From NCBI GenBank assembly GCA_017465475.1, contig JAFTWC010000018.1, positions 26,202-90,201 on the forward strand: a stretch of 64,000 nt of DNA, written 5' to 3'. Position numbers and translations under genes: made by a program. The notes beneath the pieces are model-generated. The model made no database searches. It was not told the origin of the DNA and saw only the letters and a list, made by a program, of their open reading frames with translations. Of the stretch, positions 12,900 to 58,700 are shown in pieces. Each line of letters begins with the position of its first letter. Position 1 is the stretch's first letter. This DNA comes from Lachnospiraceae bacterium. Lineage in GTDB: Bacteria; Bacillota; Clostridia; Lachnospirales; Lachnospiraceae.

Positions 12900-15800
12900 T
12901 TACATCTCTTCCATTGTCTTATACTTCTGATACCGTATACCGGAATCTTCCTTTGCGGCCTTAAATAAGGTTTCCGCATGCTCCGGGAAGGTACGTTTAA
13001 GTGCTGCGTAACGGGTTTCGCCTTCAAGGAATTCTTCGTAGTCTAAGCTCGGCTCCTTGGAATCCACGGTAAGCGGCTTTTCAGCGTTCGGGTTGTAGCG
13101 GTATAAAATCCAGTAACCTGCGTCCACGGCACGCTTCATTTCCTGCTGTACGTTTGCCATGCCGGCCTTAATGCCGTGAGCTGCACACGGAGTGTAAGCA
13201 ATGATGACAGACGGTCCCTTATGTTCCTCTGCTTCCTTTACAGCCTTGATGAGTTGGTTCGGGTCAGCGCCCATGGCAACCTGTGCCACGTATACATTGC
13301 CGTAGGTCTGGAAGATAGCACCTAAGTCTTTCTTTCTACTTCTCTTACCTGCGGAAGCAAACTGTGCTACGGCACCCAGCGGAGTTGCCTTGGAGCTCTG
13401 ACCGCCGGTGTTACTGTAAATCTCGGTATCTACGACAAATACGTTAATATCTTCGCCGCTGGCTACTACGTGATCCAAACCGCCGAAGCCGATATCGTAT
13501 GCCCAACCGTCACCGCCGAACATCCAGAAACATTTCTTCGCTAACTGGTCCTTACGTTCCAAAATCTTCGCTGCGGTTGCAGAATTCATCTTTTCAAGCT
13601 CAGCCACCAAAGCGTCGGTGGTCTGACGGGACTGATCAAAATCATCAAAACTGTCTAACCAGTTCTTTGCGACTTCACTGCCGGTTTCTGCGGCATATGC
13701 TTCTACCAAAGCCTTTTGTGCCTGACGCTGCTGCTTCACGGATAAGAACATACCCATAGCAAGCTCTGCGTTGTTCTCAAATAAGCTGTTGGTCCAAGCC
13801 GGTCCGAAACCGCGCTTGTTGGTAGTGTACGGAATGCCAGGCATCGGGGAGCCCCAAGCCTGGGAACAACCGGTTGCGTTTGCCCAGTATACACGGTCGC
13901 CGAAGAGCTGGGTCAGAAGCTTTGCGTACGGAGTTTCGCCACAACCTGCGCAGGCAGCGGAGAACTCGATAAGCGGCTGACGGAACTGGCTTCCCTTAAT
14001 GGTGTAAGGGGAGAAGAGATCGCCCTTATCGGAAACGGAAAGTCCATAGTTCCACAAAATATTCTTTTCTTCATTTAATTCAACCGGCTCCATGGTAATT
14101 GCTTTTTCCTTGGCCGGACAGCAAGCTACACAGCTGCCGCATCCGGTACAATCGTAAGCAGAAATCTGCATGGAGAAATGTAGTCCCTTTGCCGCCGGAC
14201 CGTTGGCCGGTGCTGTCACAAAGCCTTCCGGAGCGTTTGCCTTTTCTTCATCGTTCAATAAGTACGGGCGGATAACCGCGTGCGGACATACGAGAGCACA
14301 CTTGTTACACTGGATACATTTCTGTGCATCCCAAACCGGAACCTGAAGAGCAATACCGCGCTTTTCGTAAGCGGTAAGGCCAAGGTCGATACGGCCGTCT
14401 TCATAGCCCTTAAATGCGCTGACCGGAAGGTCGTCGCCCTTTTGCTTGTTAATCGGCTCTAAAATGCCGGTTACGACAGAAGGAACATCCAGTGCAGCGG
14501 CTGCTTCGGATACTTCCTCTGCATCCTTCCAGGAAGCCGGAACTTCTACTTTTACAATCTTTGTTGCGCCTGCGTCGATGGCAGCTACGTTACGGGCTAC
14601 CACATCGTCACCCTTCGCAAAATAGGTCTTCTTGGTAGCGGCCTTAATCATATCCAGTGCTTCCGTGGTCGGAATAACTTCCATGAGAGCAAAGAAGGAA
14701 GCCTGAAGGACCGTATTGGTGTGACTGCCGAGGCCTAACTCCTGGGCAATCTTATTTGCATCAATAACATAGAAGTTGATGTTCTTTTCAGCAATCTGAC
14801 GACGTACCTTTGCCGGGATATGAGCGGTCAACTCTTCTCCGGTCCAGCTGCAGTTAAGAAGGAAGGTGCCGCCTTCTACAATCTCATCTACAATGTCGTA
14901 CTGGGTAATGTAGCTTTGGTTGTGGCATGCTACGAAATCGGCGCTCTTTACATAGTAGGAGCTGGTAATCGGTTCGTCGGAGAAACGCAGGTGGGACTTG
15001 GTTACACCAAAGGATTTTTTTGCATCATATTCAAAATAAGCTTGTGCGAACTTATCGGTATTATCGTTAATAATACGAACGGTATTGTGGTTTGCACCTA
15101 CGGTACCGTCACCGCCCAGCCCCCAGAACTTACAACGGATGACACCGGCCTTTGCATCAGAGAACGGCTTAACCGGTAAGGAGAGATGGGTGACATCATC
15201 GTTGATACCAATGGTGAAGTTGGTTTTCGGAACGGCAGAAGAAAGATTTTCAAATACTGCTAAAATCTGTGCCGGATCCGTATCTTTGGAACTTAAACCA
15301 TAACGGCCGCCGATAACCTTAATATTTCTGTCGGAACTCATAAGTACGCTGCATACGTCCTCGAATAACGGCTCGCCTGCGCTGCCCATTGCCTTACAAC
15401 GGTCAAGCACTGCAATGCGCTTTACACTTTCCGGAAGAGCTTTTAAGAAATACTCTGCAGAGAACGGACGGTATAAGTGTACTTGTAAGAAACCTACCTT
15501 CTTGCCTTCTGCGCGAAGAGCATCCACGGCATCCCGGATAACGCCACTGGCAGAACCCATAGCAATGACAACGTCTGTTGCATCCGGATCACCGTAGTAA
15601 TTAAATACATGGTACTCGCGGCCGGTAATCTTTGTGATTTCACCGAGATACTTTTCTACGATGTCTGGAAGGGCATTATAGAATGTGTTGTGAGCTTCTC
15701 GTACCTGGAAGTATACGTCACCGTTTTGTACGGTGTTACGTAAGGTCGGGTGTTCCGGATTTAAGGAACCGTCACGGAACTCTTTTAAAGCATCCTGATT

Positions 15801-16385
15801 GATAAGAGAACCCACCGCATCCATATCAGGAAGCTCGATTTTATTAATCTCATGGGAGGTACGGAAACCGTCGAAGAAATGCATGAACGGAATCCGGCCT
15901 TCGATGGCGGATAAATGTGCCACAGGAGCAAGGTCGGCTACTTCCTGTACGCTGCCGGAAGACAACATGGCAAATCCGGTTTGGCGACATGCCATAACGT
16001 CGGAGTGGTCGCCGAAAATACTCATGGCATGGGTACCTACGGTACGGGATGCCACATGAAGTACGGCCGGAAGACGCTCACCGGCAATACGGTAGAGAAC
16101 CGGTACCATCAGCATAAGTCCCTGAGAGGACGTATATGTAGTTGCTAAAGAACCGGTCTGCAATGCACCGTGTACGGCGGTGATTGCACCTGCCTCGGAC
16201 TGCATCTCGGTTAAGGTGACGGTCTGGCCGAAGACATTTTTACGTCCCTTTGCGGACCAGGCGTCGGTGAGACCCGCCATCGGAGAAGACGGGGTAATCG
16301 GATAAATTGCGGCTATCTCAGTAAAGGGATAGGCCATATGTGCGGCGGCTTCATTGCCGTCCATGGTAACAAAATTTTTCGCCAT
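12900..16385 (-). CDS. nifJ: Pyruvate:ferredoxin (flavodoxin) oxidoreductase, single-chain
   Basis: A 1161-residue one-piece PFOR that oxidatively decarboxylates pyruvate to acetyl-CoA and reduces ferredoxin. It is the main pyruvate route in anaerobic Clostridia. Visible features: an N-terminal domain (IAAIYPITPSSPMAG, TSSQGLMLM), a ferredoxin-like domain with two 4Fe-4S motifs (CIQCNKCALVCP and CTGCGSCVACCP), the proximal-cluster/TPP region CAGCGETPY, and the TPP motif GGDGWAYDIGFGG ... NTGGQSSK. All expected motifs are present. ATG 16385 follows TGAGGT. Only 61 nt and no visible promoter separate it from the upstream ligase gene, so it may be expressed from the T-box promoter. Confidence 0.95.
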   Translation of the reverse strand: MAKNFVTMDGNEAAAHMAYPFTEIAAIYPITPSSPMAGLTDAWSAKGRKNVFGQTVTLTEMQSEAGAITAVHGALQTGSLATTYTSSQGLMLMVPVLYRIAGERLPAVLHVASRTVGTHAMSIFGDHSDVMACRQTGFAMLSSGSVQEVADLAPVAHLSAIEGRIPFMHFFDGFRTSHEINKIELPDMDAVGSLINQDALKEFRDGSLNPEHPTLRNTVQNGDVYFQVREAHNTFYNALPDIVEKYLGEITKITGREYHVFNYYGDPDATDVVIAMGSASGVIRDAVDALRAEGKKVGFLQVHLYRPFSAEYFLKALPESVKRIAVLDRCKAMGSAGEPLFEDVCSVLMSSDRNIKVIGGRYGLSSKDTDPAQILAVFENLSSAVPKTNFTIGINDDVTHLSLPVKPFSDAKAGVIRCKFWGLGGDGTVGANHNTVRIINDNTDKFAQAYFEYDAKKSFGVTKSHLRFSDEPITSSYYVKSADFVACHNQSYITQYDIVDEIVEGGTFLLNCSWTGEELTAHIPAKVRRQIAEKNINFYVIDANKIAQELGLGSHTNTVLQASFFALMEVIPTTEALDMIKAATKKTYFAKGDDVVARNVAAIDAGATKIVKVEVPASWKDAEEVSEAAAALDVPSVVTGILEPINKQKGDDLPVSAFKGYEDGRIDLGLTAYEKRGIALQVPVWDAQKCIQCNKCALVCPHAVIRPYLLNDEEKANAPEGFVTAPANGPAAKGLHFSMQISAYDCTGCGSCVACCPAKEKAITMEPVELNEEKNILWNYGLSVSDKGDLFSPYTIKGSQFRQPLIEFSAACAGCGETPYAKLLTQLFGDRVYWANATGCSQAWGSPMPGIPYTTNKRGFGPAWTNSLFENNAELAMGMFLSVKQQRQAQKALVEAYAAETGSEVAKNWLDSFDDFDQSRQTTDALVAELEKMNSATAAKILERKDQLAKKCFWMFGGDGWAYDIGFGGLDHVVASGEDINVFVVDTEIYSNTGGQSSKATPLGAVAQFASAGKRSRKKDLGAIFQTYGNVYVAQVAMGADPNQLIKAVKEAEEHKGPSVIIAYTPCAAHGIKAGMANVQQEMKRAVDAGYWILYRYNPNAEKPLTVDSKEPSLDYEEFLEGETRYAALKRTFPEHAETLFKAAKEDSGIRYQKYKTMEEM

Positions 16386-16446: not shown

Positions 16447-18963
16447 TTACTTGTTGCTTTTTGCGGTATCAATACCTGCAGCACCTACTAAACCGAGACG
16501 CTCTGCAGCTTCCTCACGCATTTTATATTTTAACACTTTTCCCGCTGCATTCATAGGGAAAGATTTCACAAATTCAATATATTTCGGAACCTTATGACGG
16601 GCCATGCTTGCGGTGATATAGTCGTGCATTTCTGTTTCCGTCATGGTCTTGCCTTCCTTTAAAATGATGCAAGCCATGGCTTCCTCACCGTATTTTTTAT
16701 CCGGAACACCGATGACCTGTACGTCCTGTACAAACGGATGGGTGTAAATGAATTCCTCGATTTCCTTCGGATAAATATTTTCGCCGCCGCGGATAATCAT
16801 ATCCTTGAGACGTCCGGTAATGCGATAGTTGCCGTTCTTATCACGGCAGGCAAGGTCTCCGGAGTGGAGCCAGCCCTCTGCATCTACAGTACCGCGGGTG
16901 GCTTCCGGCATCTTGTAGTAGCCCTTCATGGTGTTGTAACCGCGGGAACAGAATTCGCCGTTTTCGCCGTCCTTTACTTCTTCACCGGTTTCCGGATCGA
17001 TAATCTTACATTCAATGTGCGGGAAGTTGTAACCTACGGTGTCGCAACGTAAGTCTAACGAATCGGTCCATGCGGACATGGTACTGCCCGGAGAAGACTC
17101 GGTCTGTCCGTATACGCTGACTATACCGGTCATGTTCATTTCCTTCGGATCTGCCGCACGACGCATCAGCTCCGGCGGACAGCCTGCGCCTGCCATAATA
17201 CCGGTACGCATGTGGGAGAAGTCAGTCTTTCTGTAATCCTCATGGTTGAACATGGCGATAAACATGGTCGGTACACCGTTAAAACAGGTGATACGTTCCT
17301 GGTTGATGCAGGCCAGAGAGGATTTTGCAGAGAAGTACGGCATCGGGCATACGGTAGCACCGTGGGTCAGGGATGCGGTCATGGAAAGTACCATGCCGAA
17401 ACAGTGGAACATCGGTACCTGAATCATCATACGGTCCGCAGTGGACAGTCCCATGCGGTCACCGATACACTTACCGTTATTTACTACATTGTAGTGGGTT
17501 AACATAACGCCCTTCGGGAATCCGGTGGTTCCGGAGGTGTACTGCATGTTACAAACATCTTCCGGTTTTACCTTCGCTGCCATACGATTCAGTTCTTCTT
17601 GCGGAACTAAGTTGCCCCGTTCCATTGCCTCTTCGAAGGTCAGGCAACCCGGCTGCTTAAAACCTACGGTAATGACGTTACGAAGGAACGGCAAACGCTT
17701 ACAGTGTAACGGTTCTCCCGGCTTTGTTGTTGCAATTTCCGGGCAAATTTCATTGATAATTTCTTTATAGTTGGAATCCAGGCAGGATTCTACCATAACT
17801 AAAGTATGAGTATCGGACTGACGGAACAAATAGTCTGCCTCGTGTCTCTTATATGCGGTATTTACCGTAACCAAAACAGCACCGATTTTTGTGGTTGCCC
17901 AGAAGGTAATAAACCATGCAGGAACGTTGGTGGCCCAGATGGATACTTTGCTTCCGGCTTTTACACCCATGGAAATAAGGGCTTTAGCGAACTGATCCAC
18001 ATCCTCACGGAACTGTTCATAAGTACGGACATAATCCAAAGTGGTGTACTTAAAGGCGTACTGGTCCGGGAATTCTTCCACCATACGGTCCAGTACCTGG
18101 GAGAAGGTCAGGTTGATTAACTCATCCTTCTTCCATACATATTGACCGGTGCCGTCATGGTTTGGATACAATGCTTTTTTCTTGCCACGGGTCTTTTCGA
18201 AACGGCTCATGTAGTTCACAAAGTGAGTAAAGATTACTTCGTAATCCGGTAAATCCTCCATCCATTCGGTCTTCCATTCCAAAGAGAGGAAGCCGTCGTA
18301 GTCGATGGAAGAGAGGGCACGCATAATGTCTGCAACCGGCATGGTGCCTTCACCGATTAAGTTATAGGTTTCTTTATCGTCAGAGTCACGCAAATGTACA
18401 TGTTTTACATAGGCACCGAGATTTTTTATGGTAGTGTCCGCACTTTCTTCACAGTCACGGTACGGATGCTGTACATCCCATAGAGCAGCCAACTGGTCGC
18501 AGGCAAAGTCATCCATCATGGCACGAAGTCGTGCAGTATCGGCAAAGATGCCGCTGGTCTTAATCAAGATGGTAACTTCTGCAGCTTCCGCTTCTGCTAA
18601 CAGCTCACTTAAACGAGCCCGAACAAGATCCTCGTTATCCTGCAGAGCTACTACGGATACATACGGAACCTCAGCCTGCTTTGCAAGTTGGATCAGTTGC
18701 TGAACCAAAGCAACCGAGCTGTTGTCTTCCGAGGATAAATCACAGGAAGTGTCAAAACAAGGAATAGAGAGTTTCTTTTCTCTCATCTGTCGTACGGTAG
18801 TGGCAACATTATATTTATGGAACGGGCCGCTTTTTTCCGTTAATGGAGCAACGTACGGCAAATTGTAAATTTCTATTCCCTCAAAGCGCATATCTACGCC
18901 GGCGGCAAGCCATTCTTCCCAAGTCAGATGGGACCAACCTCTGGTAGAAAACGAAAGTTTCAT
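16447..18963 (-). CDS. Fusion: TIM-barrel isomerase-like domain + acyl-CoA synthetase
   Basis: 838 residues. Residues 1 to about 265 are a xylose-isomerase-like TIM barrel (WDVQHPYRD with D163/H166, KHVHLRD with H188/H190, SLEWK with E229). The usual first metal Glu appears to be K135, so the barrel may be impaired. Residues about 285-838 are a complete ANL-family acyl-CoA ligase: YTSGTTGFPKG (P-loop), YGQTESSPG, WLHSGDL, GRLKDMIIRGGENIYP and the catalytic Lys motif NAAGK near the C-terminus. It should activate a carboxylate to its CoA ester through an acyl-adenylate. Its start lies 3 nt after the LeuA-like stop, with AGGAGG inside that gene, so the two are translationally coupled. The reading frame is continuous across the junction, so this is a true fusion in this sequence. 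Confidence 0.88.
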   Translation of the reverse strand: MKLSFSTRGWSHLTWEEWLAAGVDMRFEGIEIYNLPYVAPLTEKSGPFHKYNVATTVRQMREKKLSIPCFDTSCDLSSEDNSSVALVQQLIQLAKQAEVPYVSVVALQDNEDLVRARLSELLAEAEAAEVTILIKTSGIFADTARLRAMMDDFACDQLAALWDVQHPYRDCEESADTTIKNLGAYVKHVHLRDSDDKETYNLIGEGTMPVADIMRALSSIDYDGFLSLEWKTEWMEDLPDYEVIFTHFVNYMSRFEKTRGKKKALYPNHDGTGQYVWKKDELINLTFSQVLDRMVEEFPDQYAFKYTTLDYVRTYEQFREDVDQFAKALISMGVKAGSKVSIWATNVPAWFITFWATTKIGAVLVTVNTAYKRHEADYLFRQSDTHTLVMVESCLDSNYKEIINEICPEIATTKPGEPLHCKRLPFLRNVITVGFKQPGCLTFEEAMERGNLVPQEELNRMAAKVKPEDVCNMQYTSGTTGFPKGVMLTHYNVVNNGKCIGDRMGLSTADRMMIQVPMFHCFGMVLSMTASLTHGATVCPMPYFSAKSSLACINQERITCFNGVPTMFIAMFNHEDYRKTDFSHMRTGIMAGAGCPPELMRRAADPKEMNMTGIVSVYGQTESSPGSTMSAWTDSLDLRCDTVGYNFPHIECKIIDPETGEEVKDGENGEFCSRGYNTMKGYYKMPEATRGTVDAEGWLHSGDLACRDKNGNYRITGRLKDMIIRGGENIYPKEIEEFIYTHPFVQDVQVIGVPDKKYGEEAMACIILKEGKTMTETEMHDYITASMARHKVPKYIEFVKSFPMNAAGKVLKYKMREEAAERLGLVGAAGIDTAKSNK

Positions 18964-18966
18964 AGA

Positions 18967-20373
18967 TTAAGCCTCCTCGTAAACGATTTTGTTGATGGCA
19001 CTGATATAGGCCTGAATACTGGAACCGATAATATCGGTGGAAGTTCCTCTTCCGGAATAAAGTTTTCCGTTTGAGCGAAGCTTAATTACGGTTTCGCCCA
19101 TAGCTTCGCGGCCTTCTGTTACGGCACGTACCTGGAAGTCATCCAGTTCGTAGTGACACCCTAAAATATTTTCTAAAGCTAAGAAAGCGGCATCTACCGG
19201 ACCGTCACCCAATGCAACACCCTCTAAGGCTTGACCGTTCTTTTCTAACTTCATCTGAGCCATGGAGGAAGCGGTGTTGCTGGCGGTAATGTGATAACTG
19301 GTTAATACATAGGTGGCCGGCACCTGCATAGCGGCAGAAGCGACGATGGTATCCAGTTCCTTAGAGGAAATCATATCTTTGCGGGCTGCAATTTTTTGAA
19401 ATGCTTCCCATACCTTTGCACTGTCTTCTTCGCTTAAGTCATAACCTAATTTTTCTACTGCCTTTAATACCGTGGTCATATTGTCCTGTGCAGTAAGATT
19501 CATTTCTTCCACATCATCCTGTACACCGTTGTCAAACGGAGAATTCTTACTGCGAGTGGTTTCACAAATCCATGCAATCTGCTTTACGATGCGGTTTATT
19601 TCCACAGTGCGAACGGAACATGTAACGCCGAAGGATTCACCCTTAGTGGAAAGCAAACGTGCAATGTTCGGCAAGGAAATTTGATTAGCACAATATGCGG
19701 AGGTTTTAAGCTCACGAACACCATGCTTAATGGCTGCGATGGCACAGGCATCGGCCATGGCCAGCTCGTTGGAACAGGAAAGACCAAGAACTACATCCTG
19801 AAGCTCCGGAACATTTTTGTTTAAAGCATCAAAGAACTCAGCAAATTCTTCCGGAAGCATGGCACCGGTGGCGTCACATACGGTAACGGTTTTGGCACCT
19901 GCTGCAATAGCGGTTTTAATTGCCTGATATAAAAATGCCTCATCGCTTCTGGTAGCATCGTCTGCAATAAACTCTACATCGGTGGTTTTTTCACAACAAG
20001 CGGTGATGACTTCTTCAATGGTCTTTAACATGGCATCCGGTTTTTTGTGGAACAAGTATTCCATCTGTACCGGACTGACGGAAGCGAACACCTGCAAACG
20101 AGGGCTTTTGGCTTCCTTTACGGCATTCCAGGTAGCTTCTACACTTTCCTTATTTAAAGAAACCGGTACGGCTACAATGCTGTTCTGTACGGTAGAGGCG
20201 ATGGACTTAATGCGCAAGGCATCCACCTTCGGCTGGGAGATCCCCTCCAGCTCAATTACGTTTACATTTAGTTTATCTAATAGTTTCGGTAGTTCGATTT
20301 TTTCTTTAAAGGAGAGGGAGAATTCTTTCCCGGTCTGTTTTAATGTTGTGTCGCTGATTCTGATTTGGTTCAT
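18967..20373 (-). CDS. LeuA-like protein lacking catalytic metal motifs, with leucine-binding C-terminal domain
   Basis: 468 residues, co-linear with 2-isopropylmalate/homocitrate synthases. The N-terminus is ISDTTL (D8-T-T), but the RDGEQ that follows in the family is KQTGKE. The HxHN metal motif is S199-C-S-N, and the GxGERxGN segment is SAYCANQISLPN. The metal-binding Asp and both His are therefore gone. The C-terminal regulatory domain (about 350-468) is well kept: FQVRAVTEGREAMGET and GRGTSTDIIGSS match the allosteric leucine-binding domain of LeuA. It is either a new enzyme activity or a leucine-sensing pseudoenzyme. It is the first gene behind the T-box leader, with AGGAGG before ATG 20373. 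Confidence 0.82.
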   Translation of the reverse strand: MNQIRISDTTLKQTGKEFSLSFKEKIELPKLLDKLNVNVIELEGISQPKVDALRIKSIASTVQNSIVAVPVSLNKESVEATWNAVKEAKSPRLQVFASVSPVQMEYLFHKKPDAMLKTIEEVITACCEKTTDVEFIADDATRSDEAFLYQAIKTAIAAGAKTVTVCDATGAMLPEEFAEFFDALNKNVPELQDVVLGLSCSNELAMADACAIAAIKHGVRELKTSAYCANQISLPNIARLLSTKGESFGVTCSVRTVEINRIVKQIAWICETTRSKNSPFDNGVQDDVEEMNLTAQDNMTTVLKAVEKLGYDLSEEDSAKVWEAFQKIAARKDMISSKELDTIVASAAMQVPATYVLTSYHITASNTASSMAQMKLEKNGQALEGVALGDGPVDAAFLALENILGCHYELDDFQVRAVTEGREAMGETVIKLRSNGKLYSGRGTSTDIIGSSIQAYISAINKIVYEEA

Positions 20374-20399: not shown

Positions 20400-20703
20400 T
20401 CTTTAAAAAAAGAAAAGTCCCTGAAGCATTTGCGCTTCAAGGACGAATAAACGATTCGCGGTACCACCTTGCTTACAGTTGTCTCACGACAAACTGTCTC
20501 TCTCGGACTCCAATAAGTCCAAAGCCGATAACGAGGCTGACCGTACTCCACTACACAAATAAAAATCCTTCGCAGAGTCGACTCGGGAGTGAGATTGCTA
20601 ACTTTTATCCGTACCGGTTCACACCAACCACCGGCTCTCTGAAACCCTCAAAAAAGAAGCATAATTCCGTCACAGTCGTTATTTCTAATTCGAAATTGGA
20701 TTC
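20400..20703 (-). ncRNA. T-box riboswitch leader, probably leucine-specific (CUC)
   Basis: On the minus strand the leader has a Stem I-like AGAGAGCCGGTGGTTGGTG segment and a candidate specifier CUC followed by A (CUC at 20591-20593). The T-box core AAGGTGGTACCGCG is at 20457-20470, and a terminator GTCCTTGAAGC/GCTTCAGGGAC with a U-run is at 20405-20444. The core carries UGGU, whose last base pairs with discriminator A73, which tRNA-Leu has. Uncharged tRNA-Leu should favour read-through into the LeuA-like operon. The T-box identity is very secure. The leucine reading is less so, since AUC overlaps the same site but is not followed by A. Confidence 0.9.
20405..20444 (-). terminator. T-box-controlled terminator
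   Basis: An 11-bp stem followed on the minus strand by TTTTCTTTTTTT. It is mutually exclusive with pairing of the T-box core at 20457-20470. Confidence 0.88.
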
Positions 20704-58493: not shown

Positions 58494-58577
58494 GCAGTTG
58501 TGGCGGAATTGGCATACGCGCATGATTCAGGTTCATGTCCACGTACGTGGGTAGGGGTTCAAGTCCCCTCAACTGCA
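58494..58577 (+). tRNA. tRNA-Leu (CAG anticodon)
   Basis: 84 nt with a 7-bp acceptor stem (GCAGTTG/CAACTGC), discriminator A and no encoded CCA. The anticodon stem CATGA/TCATG holds loop TTCAGGT with anticodon CAG (codon CUG). The long variable arm confirms a class II tRNA. Confidence 0.93.
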
Positions 58578-58617: not shown

Positions 58618-58700
58618 GCGGAAATGCTGGAATTGGCAGACAGGCATGACTAAGGATCATGTGGTCCCCGACCTTGAGGGTTCAAGTCCCTTTTTCCGCA
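58618..58700 (+). tRNA. tRNA-Leu (AAG anticodon)
   Basis: 83 nt, acceptor GCGGAAA/TTTCCGC, discriminator A and no encoded CCA. The anticodon stem CATGA/TCATG holds loop CTAAGGA with anticodon AAG (codon CUU, also CUC if A34 is deaminated to inosine). Class II with a long variable arm. 40 nt after the first tRNA and in the same transcript. Confidence 0.92.

Follow-up and report, generated by a model that had tools for sequence, protein, structure and literature searches.

Reports that rumen bacteria make leucine from isovalerate date back to the 1960s, and later reports added isobutyrate as a source of valine and 2-methylbutyrate as a source of isoleucine (PMC7356843). In a Prevotella study, the reverse reaction leading from branched acids to branched-chain amino acids is called not yet proven (PMC7709123). 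2-Oxoacid:ferredoxin oxidoreductases acting on branched acids are described in the degrading direction, namely porA of Clostridium sporogenes (PMC11271093) and nifJ of Akkermansia (PMC12867394). The acyl-CoA ligase MbcS of Staphylococcus aureus takes 2-methylbutyrate and isobutyrate, and isovalerate poorly (PMC10026030). In ordinary 2-isopropylmalate synthase (IPMS; LeuA), the regulatory domain relays the leucine signal to the barrel; in the Mycobacterium tuberculosis enzyme, linker subdomain I holds H379 and Y410, and G531, G533 and A565 belong to the leucine site (PMC2704214). The gene set described here fits each step of the rumen conversion of isovalerate to leucine (ligase, reductive 2-oxoacid:ferredoxin oxidoreductase and aminotransferase) and many of its host MAGs (metagenome-assembled genomes) are, by title, from the ruminant gut, but the conversion is known as an activity. 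In the titles and abstracts searched, with subscription journals largely outside the search, no description of this gene set or of its LeuA-derived member was found, and a literature search for LeuA pseudoenzymes found no paper containing all of its terms.

The window, i.e., the whole stretch of 64,000 nt from a Lachnospiraceae contig that was analyzed, encodes a relative of LeuA which we named LeuX (Table 1). Pfam analysis revealed an HMGL-like barrel (113.3 bits) and a LeuA_dimer domain (106.5 bits) in its open frame. The NCBIfam equivalog models for LeuA matched it far below their cutoffs, with 308.8 bits against 532 for the best of them, NF002086, and 275.2 bits against 598.7 for TIGR00973. 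LeuX has the domain order of clostridial LeuA of the TIGR00973/PRK00915 type and its regulatory domain with the GDG motif, but differs from it in having neither the metal ligands nor GxGERxG, in its shortened subdomain I and in its scores below the equivalog cutoffs.

Table 1. Features of the LeuX locus and other features located in the window
Feature	Position	Strand	Details
T-box leader (RF00230)	20436..20682	-	Rfam, 107.9 bits; gathering score 93
T-box specifier codon CUC (leucine)	20591..20593	-	Upstream of LeuX
LeuX, LeuA-derived protein	18967..20373	-	468 aa; HMGL-like barrel, aa 4-225; LeuA regulatory domain, aa 335-463
KQTGKE replacing RDGEQ, metal Asp gone	20323..20340	-	aa 12-17; from alignment
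S199-C-S-N202 replacing HxH[ND], both metal His gone	19768..19779	-	From alignment
GDGPVDA, leucine-site motif of the regulatory domain	19189..19209	-	aa 389-395; G389, D390 and G391 in 91/91 family rows reaching the motif; P392 varies
AP_endonuc_2 TIM barrel fused to AMP-binding acyl-CoA ligase	16447..18963	-	TIM barrel, aa 27-234; ligase, aa 292-809; proposed isovalerate-CoA ligase
Single-chain pyruvate-type:ferredoxin oxidoreductase (PFOR)	12900..16385	-	ORF open to 16484; start taken at MAKNFVTMDG
Tandem tRNA genes	58494..58577 and 58618..58700		Rfam

Alignment with LeuA of E. coli K-12 confirmed the loss of the IPMS metal site and of the GERxGN segment, both of which the first-pass annotation had read from the window alone. 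DTTLRDGEQ of the E. coli enzyme is replaced by DTTLKQTGKE, two residues shorter, and HTHDD by S199-C-S-N-E, while GIGERAGN is absent. Also absent, and missed in that annotation, is the AFAHSSGIHQDG..YEI stretch of linker subdomain I, which is mostly gone in LeuX and is shortened in every LeuX row of the alignment with E. coli LeuA. The losses extend to the family, for which matches above 330 bits were aligned and four exact duplicates removed, leaving 93 rows that include both halves of one frameshifted gene (L033) and one gene cut by a contig end (L004). The metal Asp is found at position 13 in 0/93 rows (Glu in 7/93), His is present at position 199 in a single row (L011) and at position 201 in none, and GxGERxG occurs in 0/93. 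Of the replacement motifs, KQ is largely conserved (K12 in 78/93 rows, Q13 in 77/93), and the S-C-x-N/D site only in part (S199 in 57, C200 in 78, N202 in 57 and D202 in 34 of the 93 rows, N or D together in 91). With gaps counted, residue 166 is not Cys in 12 rows and residue 200 is not Cys in 15. The C-terminal domain, by contrast with the metal site, was kept, as had been claimed: in addition to the GDG of its leucine-site motif, A424 is present in 91/91 rows reaching the site. Matched by reading the motif rather than by aligning the M. tuberculosis sequence, G389, G391 and A424 are the likely counterparts of G531, G533 and A565. In summary, LeuX is a LeuA relative that has no IPMS metal site and keeps the LeuA regulatory domain, and it is a predicted pseudoenzyme.

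A scan of genome contigs yielded 143 relatives, the best 80 of which were retained. By their titles, all of these 80 are MAGs, mainly of Lachnospiraceae, Oscillospiraceae or Clostridia, and many are from ruminant colon, caecum or rectum. Within the GTDB family of the window, matches at 1e-10 were obtained in 23/299 genomes, with split genes as well as ordinary LeuA among them, and 15 rows, the window's own among them, exceeded 330 bits. In a phylum-wide sample, 12/398 genomes passed 1e-70: the window genome and G351 have LeuX, as judged by motif or identity, nine others have a LeuA with D[TS]TLRDGEQ motifs, and one gene with an internal stop (L145) was left unclassified.

A maximum-likelihood tree was built from 44 rows classed by motif (28 LeuX from the 93, 13 LeuA and 3 CimA). 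All 28 LeuX rows fell into a single clade (100/100), whose stem is long at 1.63 changes per column; this clade grouped with five clostridial LeuA (100/98), while the three CimA rows formed a clade of their own. The drawn root is the midpoint and the deeper forks are weak; with CimA taken as outgroup, LeuX falls inside LeuA. A comparison with LeuA, CimA and NifV, which the first-pass annotation had proposed, thus placed LeuX with LeuA; descent as a CimA relative was rejected by the tree, and as a NifV relative by score (74.5 bits against 462.9 for the nifV model).

LeuX shows dN/dS values of 0.038 to 0.054 against three orthologues that are 92 to 93% identical to it (L031, L032 and L107), and of 0.04 to 0.07 for the barrel against the same three; a value of 0.09 was obtained against L040, where silent sites are close to saturation, and four further pairs were saturated. 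Judged by these sequence comparisons, LeuX is a conserved clade near clostridial LeuA that is under purifying selection, and in line with this the earlier view that the gene is not decaying holds. L040 lies on the same contig as L041; the two near-terminal copies at opposite ends are in inverted orientation and have an identical LeuX, probably an assembly duplication. In the MAG with the split gene, the frameshift is at L033:10801-10805, a sequencing error or a real loss. The mean pairwise identity of LeuX is 0.55 in the barrel and 0.73 in the regulatory domain (800 random pairs), whereas that of 13 true LeuA is 0.60 and 0.43, respectively (all pairs; the two sets were sampled differently, and the LeuA rows were drawn from several searches). 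LeuA above its model cutoff was found in just 2/150 genomes of the window's family at 1e-120, too few for a control. The inverted conservation suggests that the protein is kept above all for its regulatory domain.

Leucine T-boxes switch genes on when tRNA-Leu is uncharged. Judged by its leader, the window LeuX gene is under leucine-type T-box control, which agrees with the first reading. Among 20 short loci scanned with Rfam, the window gene included, 13 reached the gathering score upstream of LeuX; two (L053 and L009) scored 91.4 and 81.2 bits, below it, and at an E value of 0.01 no T-box was found in L005, L006, L010, L015 and L016, the upstream side of L010 being short. A pattern search detected a T-box core within 700 nt of LeuX in 86/96 matches (duplicates and both L033 halves included), two of them with three mismatches, of which L014 was strong in Rfam (116.9 bits). 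With a codon-neutral pattern applied to 95 loci, the specifier was read in 74 (including the window gene and three duplicate loci), and all were leucine codons (CTG in 40, CTC in 28, CTT in 6). The same kind of pattern yields Ile and Val codons for other genes, so the reading is not biased toward leucine. The other 21 loci comprise 10 without a T-box by pattern (including L033, as an artefact of its split frame), 3 without AGAGAG and 8 with an unreadable specifier. L072, L077 and L101 have no T-box by pattern upstream of LeuX.

The gene directly downstream encodes a TIM barrel fused to an acyl-CoA ligase, and its ATG lies 3 nt past the LeuX stop codon in the window. Such a fusion is the next gene in 92/92 LeuX loci with a visible downstream side (L004, L013 and L059 end before that gene and are outside the 92), and LeuX of G351 likewise adjoins a ligase that agrees with these in kind and length. 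Its start was located in 84 of these loci; in 83 it is at most 30 nt from the LeuX stop, and in 62 the genes overlap at -4. The ligase retains its motif lysines (K484 in 75/75 and K809 in 74/75 aligned fusions). In the NCBIfam search, the best model for the window's fusion was PRK12583. Three genomes of 99 to 100% completeness (G039, G134 and G189) have the ligase fusion with no LeuX match at 1e-5, suggesting that LeuX is accessory to the ligase; in G134 the fusion begins at a contig end, and in G039 a T-box-like leader reading CTC precedes it. At residue 135 of the fusion's TIM barrel, which we take to be the position where related isomerases bear the metal Glu, Lys is present in 61/75 fusions, Glu in 13/75 and Ser in 1/75; the fusions from the three genomes with no LeuX match all carry Glu there. 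As a guess, this barrel may be the contact surface for LeuX.

For 42 of the 80 loci, at least 9 kb upstream and at least 6 kb downstream of LeuX are available, and genes in these wide loci were scored by their similarity to the proteins of locus L057. An oxidoreductase was found near the LeuX-ligase pair in 41/42: 27 loci have VorB (2-ketoisovalerate:ferredoxin oxidoreductase, VOR), 14 have PFOR directly downstream of the ligase, none has both, and the one with neither (L078) is in a record that stops just past its second ligase. In L057, genes divergent from LeuX encode two ligases with an N-terminal helix-turn-helix (HTH) and cupin part (L057:4360-9306, with counterparts at the same place in related loci), a weakly P-loop-like NTPase (L057:3685-4356), VorB (544 bits; cutoff, 399) and a branched-chain aminotransferase (504 bits; cutoff, 307). 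All 27 VorB loci contain at least one HTH-ligase and a similar NTPase gene, 24 contain two ligases and 17 the aminotransferase; among the 14 PFOR loci, no HTH-ligase and three aminotransferases were detected. In L130, a single run of genes encodes the aminotransferase (484.7 bits; cutoff, 307), LeuX, the ligase fusion, a protein assigned as P-loop by the start of its sequence, VorB (471.5 bits; cutoff, 399), a beta subunit of an oxidoreductase that stays below its cutoff with 107 bits, and a 182-residue protein without a match; no T-box was found at this locus. Since VorB and PFOR replace each other, it is suggested that the window PFOR performs the VOR step. By sequence it is a canonical PFOR, and we propose that it carboxylates isovaleryl-CoA to 2-ketoisocaproate.

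The best NCBIfam model for the two HTH-cupin-ligases of L057 was MbcS, with 425.6 and 419.3 bits against a cutoff of 850. They thus differ from MbcS in score and in the added N-terminal part, and the leucine-branch ligase differs from it in having another best model and in its fusion to a TIM barrel. Most of the MbcS-like ligases of the 27 VorB loci have an Ile or Val T-box. Upstream of such ligases in related loci, 65 T-boxes were found. The specifier of the proximal ligase was ATC (Ile) in all 44 that were read; that of the distal ligase was GTC or GTA (Val) in the six read by script, and among the 15 that the script left unread, all distal, it was GTC by eye in 14 and undecided in L063. That MbcS uses isovalerate poorly agrees with the leucine branch having a ligase family of its own. 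A second sensor, of an amino acid or an acid, may reside in the HTH-cupin part.

The gene ilvC (TIGR00465) was searched in 50 host genomes. It is present in 15/17 genomes of the PFOR type but in 2/33 of the VOR type, being absent from the other 2 and 31, respectively; all 14 control genomes were positive (Fisher P of 7e-9 with kinship ignored; the genomes are MAGs with completeness not given). Therefore, most VOR-type hosts seem to have the three-ligase cluster as a substitute for the standard route. One of the two VOR-type genomes keeping ilvC is that of L072. The window genome, which is of the PFOR type, carries a leuA-leuC-leuD-leuB run on a different contig (L160, C52:40000-52000); each of the four genes is above a family cutoff, and the run has a T-box-like leader reading CUC. 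It is thus not dependent on an isovalerate route, and a role of LeuX as the housekeeping LeuA was rejected. Its genuine LeuA matches the PRK03739 subfamily model, the yeast-like kind. Homologues of the Ile/Val ligases in this genome are 29% matches only; for one of them, on C33, with a VorB-like fragment close by at the contig end, no T-box was found, and no VorB above the cutoff was detected in the genome (88.8% complete).

The first-pass annotation had left two options, a leucine-sensing pseudoenzyme or a LeuA relative with new chemistry. It had missed the fixed ligase neighbor, the linkage to oxidoreductases and the ligases with Ile and Val T-boxes, which together point to a route from branched-chain acids to leucine and favor the sensor over new chemistry. 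A pathway that reductively carboxylates isovalerate, 2-methylbutyrate and isobutyrate, giving leucine, isoleucine and valine, is well supported by the genomics. The loss of the IPMS site, the conservation, the leucine T-boxes and the neighboring genes are read directly from sequence; we infer how LeuX works, which acid the ligase takes, that LeuX and the ligase form a complex, and that leucine binds and in which sense it acts. According to our preferred reading, to which we give a probability of roughly 0.55, LeuX would be a pseudoenzyme of leucine-type LeuA descent working as a regulatory subunit, responsive to leucine, of the acyl-CoA ligase that the following gene encodes, in an operon making leucine from isovalerate. 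Uncharged tRNA-Leu would turn the operon on via the T-box. The ligase would convert isovalerate to isovaleryl-CoA using ATP, the oxidoreductase, working reductively, would add CO2 to give 2-ketoisocaproate, and a branched-chain aminotransferase would complete leucine. LeuX would bind the ligase fusion and render it leucine sensitive; at high leucine levels, leucine would occupy the regulatory domain of LeuX, and ligase activity would fall, inhibition being assumed because of the LeuA precedent. The catabolic direction, from leucine to isovalerate, is disfavored because a leucine T-box turns the genes on at uncharged tRNA-Leu. In HisZ-HisG and like pairs, a catalytically dead paralogue is the regulatory subunit. 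LeuX would likewise be a dead enzyme kept for an end-product response, but it would regulate an unrelated enzyme.

Several observations speak against this reading. K12, Q13, C166, C200 and N/D202 are kept in most members, beyond the needs of an inert scaffold; furthermore, the oxidoreductase of the window looks like a canonical PFOR by sequence, some loci have no T-box, the TIM barrel of the fusion mostly carries Lys at the usual metal Glu position and the window genome has the usual leu genes. The residues retained at the old active-site end, together with the low dN/dS of the barrel, could indicate that LeuX is a working enzyme with a new, metal-free chemistry in the same pathway, e.g., thioester transfer or hydrolysis via C166 and C200. 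However, conservation is lower in the barrel than in the regulatory domain, opposite to true LeuA, each of the two cysteines is missing in a share of the rows, the proposed pathway lacks no step and three genomes have the ligase fusion without LeuX, so we regard such an activity as doubtful. The -4 overlap in 62/84 located cases suggests a stoichiometric complex and would also suit a LeuX that the ligase strictly requires as a structural or an activating subunit, or one that forms a channel linking the ligase to the oxidoreductase, with leucine binding secondary or activating. An invariant GDG at the leucine site is hard to square with a mere scaffold and the fusions in G039, G134 and G189 have no LeuX match, yet we consider this slightly less doubtful than new chemistry, while still unlikely.

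It is also conceivable that LeuX controls the genuine LeuA through mixed dimers, since LeuA_dimer (PF08502) is the dimerization domain of LeuA and the window genome encodes a genuine LeuA. This LeuA, however, is of the yeast-like kind and aligns with LeuX over just 120 residues at 27% identity; moreover, the usual route is probably absent from the 31/33 VOR-type genomes in which ilvC, the gene searched, is missing, and LeuX is linked to the ligase, all of which makes mixed dimers improbable. That LeuX is a decaying leuA duplicate, for which the lost catalytic residues and the frameshift in one MAG copy could be cited, has hardly any probability left in view of the low dN/dS against the three close orthologues and of one clade with a fixed partner across many records.

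For gut Clostridia, the preferred reading of LeuX as a regulatory subunit belongs to a broader proposal, which we hold at about even odds: a three-branch system would make leucine, isoleucine and valine from the branched volatile acids of neighbors instead of by the standard route, with a separate T-box for each branch, and a dead LeuA from the displaced pathway would act as the allosteric leucine sensor of an unrelated adenylating enzyme. If true, the loci provide candidate genes for all three activating steps and for their control, and the presence of the cluster together with the absence of ilvC would be a marker of bacterial dependence on cross-fed branched acids. LeuX would then be a clear case in which end-product allostery was moved from the first enzyme of one pathway to the unrelated first enzyme of another.
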